Below are positions 7,958 through 9,725 of a DNA stretch of 64,000 nt, one piece after another (the stretch's first letter is position 1; the number at the start of each line of letters is the position of its first letter). The notes below the pieces were generated by a model. It worked only from the letters and a program-made list of their open reading frames with translations, was not told where the DNA came from and searched no databases. The position numbers and the translations under genes were made by a program. Source of the DNA: Thunnus maccoyii (taxonomy: Eukaryota; Chordata; Actinopteri; Scombriformes; Scombridae); the NCBI RefSeq assembly GCF_910596095.1, contig NC_056543.1:19855542-19919541 (forward strand). Reading direction: 5' to 3'.

Positions 7958-9725
7958 TTAACTCAGGAGGTGTTTCTTTCCAAGGAACTGGACTTTCCTC
8001 TCAAAAGCTGTTGAGCGAATTGGTGCATTGATTTCATAGAATGGATTCATTGCGAACTGAAAGATAGAATAAATATTAAATTCAAACACTGAAGGATGAA
8101 AAAAGACCATGTGTTACCTCATTTTGACCAAATAGAAGATAACTTACCTTAATGTATAAATCATATACATCATTAAAAAAGTTCTTGATTCCATCTTCTT
8201 GTCGTACATCATGCAGCATGATGAATCTTATATGTATGTCAAATAATTAAAGAAAATAAAGCCATGACATTAAATTCCTTAAAGGACAGGTTCACATTTT
8301 TTCAAGTCTGTCTTAAAACAACAGTCAGGTGCCCATATGAACACTGAAACAGTTTTGCTTGTACATATGACCACTTGACATGAATGGTGCCAATTAGCAT
8401 CATTAATAGACATATGTATTTTTTTGCAACAGTGTTTTCTGATATGAGTTTTCTGTGAGTAATTAATGTACTATCAGGAAATAAAAGGGAATAATCACAT
8501 CATGTAGGGAAAAAAAGGATATGTCCTGCGGTGACAAAGGCAGACACAAACCACTCGTTGAACTTGTCCACAGTTTTTAAGTACATATTGTTGGACAGCC
8601 ACATGTTTTCATCCACCAAATCCAGGGCTGCATGTGCAATGAACTGGTTCAGGTGACGGTGGTCATCCTGTGATCAGTGAAACAAAACTTATCAAACAAG
8701 ATAAATGAACAGGCAGTATCATTTCCTATAAACGACTGTTAAGACATCACACCACTTACAGTGAGGGCAGTTTAGTGTGGTGCACATGCCTCATAGACTG
8801 TGTCCTCACAGTTATGCTGTAGGCTATGGCTACTCCAGTGAATAGCACCACTAATCATTTTTTCCTCTGCCACCCAAAAATCAAAAACCTTTCCTCTTAT
8901 AGATTGATAGAAAGGTAGAAACGGTTGTTGTTTTTTGATAGAGCTTATTCGAAATGCCACAGCTATGATTTAAACTGGCACCAAACATGGAGACCATATT
9001 ACCCCAATCATAGCACATCTGCACTGGTTACCAGTTAGATTTAGAATTGATTTTAATATTTTATTGATTTTTCTGAAAGCAAGGCCAGGTATAGCCTCTA
9101 GCTATATTGCTGACCTGTTAACATAGCCTAAGATCCTCAGACAACGCCCTCTTAGCTGTTCCAAAGTCCAGGATCAAGTATAAAAGTGACTGTGCTTTCT
9201 CTATTAAAGGCACCCAGACTGTGGATGACCTTACATAGGCAGGCTTGTGTGTGAATCACTCCTTATGCACTGCTGTTAGGGAGTTTGGGGCCAGTTTGGG
9301 ACATTTGTGTTTCTGTGGAGTTCCATCTGTTTTTAATTGTTCGTTTGTTTGTTTGTTTTTGGACCTGCTTATCTCTTGTATGACCTTTTATTCCTATTTT
9401 TATAAACACTATTATTGTTTTATCTTTATTTTTCTATTATTCAGCTCTATTATTTGTTTAATTGTGGTAATTTTACATTACTGTCTCCTTGGGTATGTAT
9501 GTAAAGCATTTTGTAAACATTGTTTTAAGAAAGGTGCTATATAAATGAAGTTTAATATTATTATTAATATTATTGGACAACACAAGATGTGCTGGATTGA
9601 ATGCTGGTGTGATTAATAAAGACACCTCTTACCTTTGATTCAGGCTTGCCAGATGGCAGGAACTCCATCTCAAACACAGGGTTGTCATGATGACCGACCA
9701 TGACAAAATAAAAACTTCCAGACAT
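7958..9725 (-). CDS. trappc2: trappc2, TRAPP complex subunit 2 (sedlin), four coding exons
   Basis: Coding exons in transcript order: 9633-9725, 8523-8667, 8148-8233 and 7958-8056 (stop TAA 7958-7960). The total is 423 nt, giving 140 residues, the same length as human sedlin. The product begins [20 protein letters not shown] and ends [12 protein letters not shown]. The fold is a longin domain. D47, the residue hit by the human D47Y disease allele, is conserved. TRAPPC2 is a core subunit of TRAPP complexes acting in ER-to-Golgi and Golgi traffic; loss in humans causes X-linked spondyloepiphyseal dysplasia tarda. Intron 2 (8234-8522) has AT-AC ends; using GT-AG rules alone would break the frame here. 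The gene is head-to-head with ofd1. Confidence 0.96.
8234..8522 (-). other. trappc2: AT-AC minor-spliceosome (U12) intron of trappc2
   Basis: On the minus strand the intron begins ATATCCTTT, an exact U12 AT-type 5' splice site. It ends in AC at 8234-8235. A branch-site-like TTCTTTAAT lies at 8246-8254, with its second A 13 nt from the acceptor. No usable GT donor exists at the end of the preceding exon. Splicing at these sites joins GGA-C with AT-ATA-AGA, giving [17 protein letters not shown], in register with the family. Confidence 0.92.
8279..8460 (+). mobile_element. truncated TTAA-type MITE inside the AT-AC intron
   Basis: From TTAAAGGACAGGTTCACA at 8279 the sequence reads as the end of a common teleost MITE with the phrase GTCAGGTGCCCATATGAACA. 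The other terminus is not found, so the copy is truncated and the right boundary is approximate. It makes up most of the 289-bp intron. Family identity is from general knowledge of fish repeats. Confidence 0.55.
8985..9575 (+). mobile_element. L2-type LINE 3' fragment in trappc2 intron 1
   Basis: Translation near 8995-9120 gives [18 protein letters not shown] codons, then [11 protein letters not shown] and [13 protein letters not shown], the tail of an L2-clade reverse transcriptase, with stops. The 3' end has the characteristic TGTAAAGCATTTTGTAAACA and GGTGCTATATAAATGAAGTT phrases followed by an ATT-rich microsatellite (9551-9573). It is an inactive fragment. Confidence 0.8.

Follow-up and report, generated by a model that had tools for sequence, protein, structure and literature searches.

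The window analysed here is a stretch of 64,000 nucleotides (nt) of the southern bluefin tuna genome (Thunnus maccoyii, contig NC_056543.1, positions 19,855,542 to 19,919,541), and positions below are counted from its first letter. On the minus strand, from 9725 to 7958, it contains a complete coding region of trappc2, divided into four exons (Table 1). The interval between the second and third of these, here called intron 2, is very probably a U12-type AT-AC intron that is orthologous to intron 4 of human TRAPPC2, an assignment to which we give, on the basis of the sequence, a probability of roughly 97%. When position 8523 is joined to 8233, a protein of 140 residues is obtained, which aligns without gaps to mouse sedlin (1h3q), the junction included, with 131 of the 140 residues identical. 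The translation matches the Pfam family Sedlin_N with 174.8 bits, and what is encoded is thus a full-length 140-residue Sedlin_N protein, as TRAPPC2 (sedlin) should be. The coding junctions of the fish gene lie at 93, 238 and 324.

Table 1. Coding exons, introns and splice signals of trappc2 in the window, and matches to U4atac elsewhere in the genome.
Feature	Location	Strand	Remark
Coding exon 1	9633..9725	-	93 nt, begins with the ATG at 9725; aligns to mouse sedlin without gaps
Intron 1	8668..9632	-	GT-AG, 965 nt
Coding exon 2	8523..8667	-	145 nt, ends at c.238
Intron 2	8234..8522	-	putative U12-type AT-AC, 289 nt, phase 1
U12-type 5' splice site ATATCCTTT	8514..8522	-	9/9 positions
U12-type branch site TTCTTTAAT	8246..8254	-	second A at 8247
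Upstream AC	8238..8239	-	human spacing; with donor 8522 the frame shifts, 88 residues
In-frame AC acceptor	8234..8235	-	end of intron 2
Coding exon 3	8148..8233	-	86 nt
Intron 3	8057..8147	-	GT-AG, 91 nt
Coding exon 4	7958..8056	-	99 nt including stop
U4atac match L011	G000:C11:5139864		above gathering score
U4atac match L012	G000:C24:2284189		above gathering score

The reading frame cannot be continued through the interval, as reading on past 8523 adds only six residues (ILFFPT) after the histidine before a stop is reached. To compare the possible splices, all 1455 GT-AG, GC-AG, AT-AC and AT-AG pairs within 8667-8148 that give introns of at least about 30 nt were scored against mouse sedlin. 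The highest score, 710, belongs to the AT-AC pair 8522/8234. Another AT-AC pair, 8520/8238, reaches 698, with a product of 142 residues that contains two inserted residues, and was rejected also on account of its weaker donor. Among the AT-AG pairs, 8503/8227 does best, with a score of 690 and foreign residues inserted, and every GC-AG pair scores below 8522/8234.

The consensus sequences used to score U12-type signals were RTATCCTTT for the donor and TTCCTTRAY for the branch site. Intron 2 begins with AT and ends with AC; its donor ATATCCTTT follows the consensus throughout, while its branch site TTCTTTAAT does so at 8 of 9 positions, the second A of this motif lying 13 nt upstream of the final base of the intron. 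The best branch motifs of the neighbouring GT-AG introns are weaker, with 7/9 (at 24 nt) and 5/9. Seven placements of the boundaries would lead to an identical messenger RNA, one of which (8522/8234) has AT-AC ends and none GT-AG ends. The optimum distance from branch site to acceptor is given as 11-13 nt in PMC3584512 (section 4), and the 13 nt of intron 2 falls inside this range. The initial annotation had identified the gene as trappc2 and had proposed an intron with an AT donor and an AC acceptor, required for the reading frame, with a U12 branch A 13 nt upstream, as well as the 11 residues across the junction and the length of 140 residues. These proposals are borne out, the intron coordinates to the base.

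It is important to point out that the placement of the motifs, and not their frequency, carries the weight here. Taken by itself, motif frequency was discarded as evidence, being not significant for either motif: in the 64-kb window RTATCCTTT has 2 matches, with 1.48 expected, and is thus not rarer than chance, and the exact TTCCTTRAY has 3, with 3.70 expected. None of the latter is at intron 2, because its branch site differs at one position. For a donor to stand at exactly the required boundary, on the other hand, the probability is about 2e-5 per site, as estimated from the intron base composition, and a branch motif of at least 8/9 occurs 8-25 nt before the AC in 1.5% of mononucleotide shuffles. 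In the whole window, counting both strands, such a motif is found at this distance upstream of 43 of the 7446 AC sites, the two of intron 2 included, and three of these sites (8238, 8234 and 5568) lie within 60-3000 nt of the donor at 8522. A second exact copy of ATATCCTTT is present on the plus strand at 60536-60544, beside a TG repeat. Within 60-3000 nt of it there is no AC acceptor with an 8/9 branch motif, and we therefore regard this copy as a chance occurrence.

The same 782-Mb genome contains matches above the Rfam gathering score to the small nuclear RNAs (snRNAs) of the minor spliceosome, namely at least one each for U11, U12 and U6atac and at least two for U4atac, where the counts are lower bounds since only the best candidates were scored. 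The same searches gave no match in 14 control genomes, which says little as the identities of these genomes are not shown, and an Rfam scan of the window gave nothing at gathering score. The U12 of this genome pairs with the branch site over 8 bases with one A bulged. In the 5' region of U6atac, the motif AAAGGA, read by eye from the sequence, is perfectly complementary to positions +4 to +9 of the donor; the three longest computed U6atac pairing runs are in a different register.

From these observed elements, namely the signals in the DNA, the reading frame, a position orthologous to that in the human gene and the genes for the snRNAs, a course of splicing can be outlined, the spliceosome steps being those established for minor splicing. 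U11 and U12 would recognise ATATCCTTT and TTCTTTAAT, respectively, and U11 would then be replaced by U6atac at the donor. The minor spliceosome would join 8523 to 8233, by which the His80 codon would be restored and the 140-residue TRAPP subunit obtained.

A number of results weigh against this assignment. The duplex of U11 with the donor has an energy of -4.5, compared to a best value of -10.8 elsewhere, and as a donor score the U11 duplex energy was rejected, as it does not discriminate (of all 9-mers in 9725-7958, the donor takes rank 366, counted from zero). The U12 duplex at this branch site (-5.8) is also weaker than that of the consensus (-7.5). Furthermore, a U12-type intron is expected to lack a distinct polypyrimidine tract, and the 20 nt that precede the acceptor contain 14 pyrimidines, a count which is not below the 12 and 15 of the GT-AG neighbours and does not distinguish intron 2 from them. 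Competition with the acceptor at 8234 is also conceivable for the upstream AC at 8238.

We now turn to the human gene, for which PMC7260818 lists the variants c.93+1, c.238+1A>G, c.238+4T>C and c.325-2, together with the deletions c.239-11_239-9delAAT, c.239-11_239-4delAATTATTT and c.239-10_239-7delATTA; those in human intron 4 are associated with disease. The terms "U12" and "AT-AC" do not occur in that text. Because the variant names imply the exon ends, the human coding junctions can be placed after c.93, c.238 and c.324, and these are, as far as the names tell, common to fish and human. Intron 2 and human intron 4 are alike in lying in the same gene after c.238, within the His80 codon, and, with the human letters again read from the variant names, in three sequence features: an A at position +1, a T at +4 and, at the branch site, the octamer AATTATTT, which the human deletions locate at -11 to -4. 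They differ in that the in-frame AC of the fish is four bases further from AATTATTT than is c.239, where the human exon begins. For human, the bases in this comparison are those given by the variant nomenclature and not by a genome sequence.

PMC3584512, PMC8199999 and PMC7644725 describe a U12-type, or minor-intron, 5' splice site of SEDL/TRAPPC2 that is mutated in spondyloepiphyseal dysplasia tarda, and PMC8329584 describes a cryptic U2-type site that is activated by a TRAPPC2 splice-site mutation. According to PMC2831892, vertebrate U12 introns are generally strongly conserved, with losses in eight clusters and U12-U2 conversion in five. Compared to vertebrate U12-type introns in general, intron 2 of the fish shows no notable difference. 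Given this general conservation and the identical position in the human gene, intron 2 can be taken as the expected ortholog of human intron 4, as judged from the sequences. Since the human gene is known to carry an intron of this kind at that position, the fish case is an ordinary one. The titles of Mumm (2001) and Shaw (2003) refer to the non-canonical splice site of this gene.

The alternative that survives best concerns the 3' end of the intron. The octamer AATTATTT at 8248-8241 is followed by GAC (8240-8238) and then by ATAC (8237-8234), such that the distance from the second A to the last base is 9 for the AC at 8238 and 13 for the one at 8234. The intron could accordingly be of the U12 type but with the AC at 8238 sometimes used, in which case part of the transcripts would be frameshifted and probably decayed. 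This is rather unlikely, in our judgement: although the spacing of this AC to the branch octamer equals that of the human acceptor position inferred from the patient deletions in PMC7260818, the 9 nt is under the 11-13 nt optimum reported in PMC3584512, and the product is an 88-residue fragment. One can speculate further that, after the fish and human lineages separated, the branch site and the exon came to lie at a spacing altered by four bases. The AC at the human spacing would have been stranded in this fish, with its role passing to a second AC located four bases downstream, and the pair would now form a tandem acceptor whose upstream use would switch trappc2 off by frameshift. This scenario must be considered improbable.

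Another option is that exons 2 and 3 are joined by the major spliceosome at GT-AG sites, which would result in a shorter protein. Such splices do exist on paper, as the frame is preserved up to the normal stop by 13 of the 304 GT-AG pairs. The highest-scoring of these, 8545/8227, was rejected with a score of 643: its product has 130 residues and lacks ten residues of mouse sedlin, and its exon ends are unlike those that the variant names imply for human. We therefore give this option hardly any credence. The claim of the initial annotation that only this splice, 8523 to 8233, yields the junction residues and the length of 140 is essentially correct, this splice being the top of the 1455 pairs, with two qualifications: the 8520/8238 pair also gives a long product, and the 13 GT-AG pairs preserve the frame.

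The possibility that trappc2 is a decayed copy with an unspliced interval can practically be dismissed. No observation speaks for it, none of the four coding exons is damaged, the identity to the mouse protein is high, as given above, and all 4 matches of a protein search of the genome lie at the trappc2 locus. As all of them correspond to exons inside the window, that search revealed no intronless trappc2 copy in the genome that could stand in for a cDNA, and neither did the Sedlin_N profile, with 3 matches, two of them exons here and one on C1. The C1 match scores 34.8 bits, compared to a cut-off of 23.1, and has an open frame of 113 codons; from its resemblance, we take it to be a candidate trappc2l.

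Finally, some features of the surroundings can be mentioned. A 202-codon open frame of the Ras family, at 5257-5865 on the plus strand, is presumably rab9a, and a frame on the same strand with its first methionine at 10501 is assumed to be ofd1; the order rab9a, trappc2, ofd1 would be that of the human X chromosome. Between trappc2 on the minus strand and the ofd1-like gene on the plus strand, which are arranged head to head, the start codons are separated by about 0.8 kb (9725-10501), and this arrangement suggests that the two genes may share a promoter region. At 6381-6905 there is an element of 525 bp with 33-nt terminal inverted repeats that are 94% complementary, and it holds a transposase-like piece (GLFQDDNGPSHRARGVTEWF, frame 6426-6668, plus strand), which we presume to be of the Tc1/mariner family. 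The element is likely a deleted DNA transposon.

With the assignment of intron 2 as a U12-type AT-AC intron, trappc2 of this tuna would provide a clear case, in a fish, of a minor intron with relevance to disease. It would also illustrate that sequence and reading frame are enough to recognise introns of this kind, and in the tandem AC one could have a natural test of 3' end choice by the minor spliceosome.
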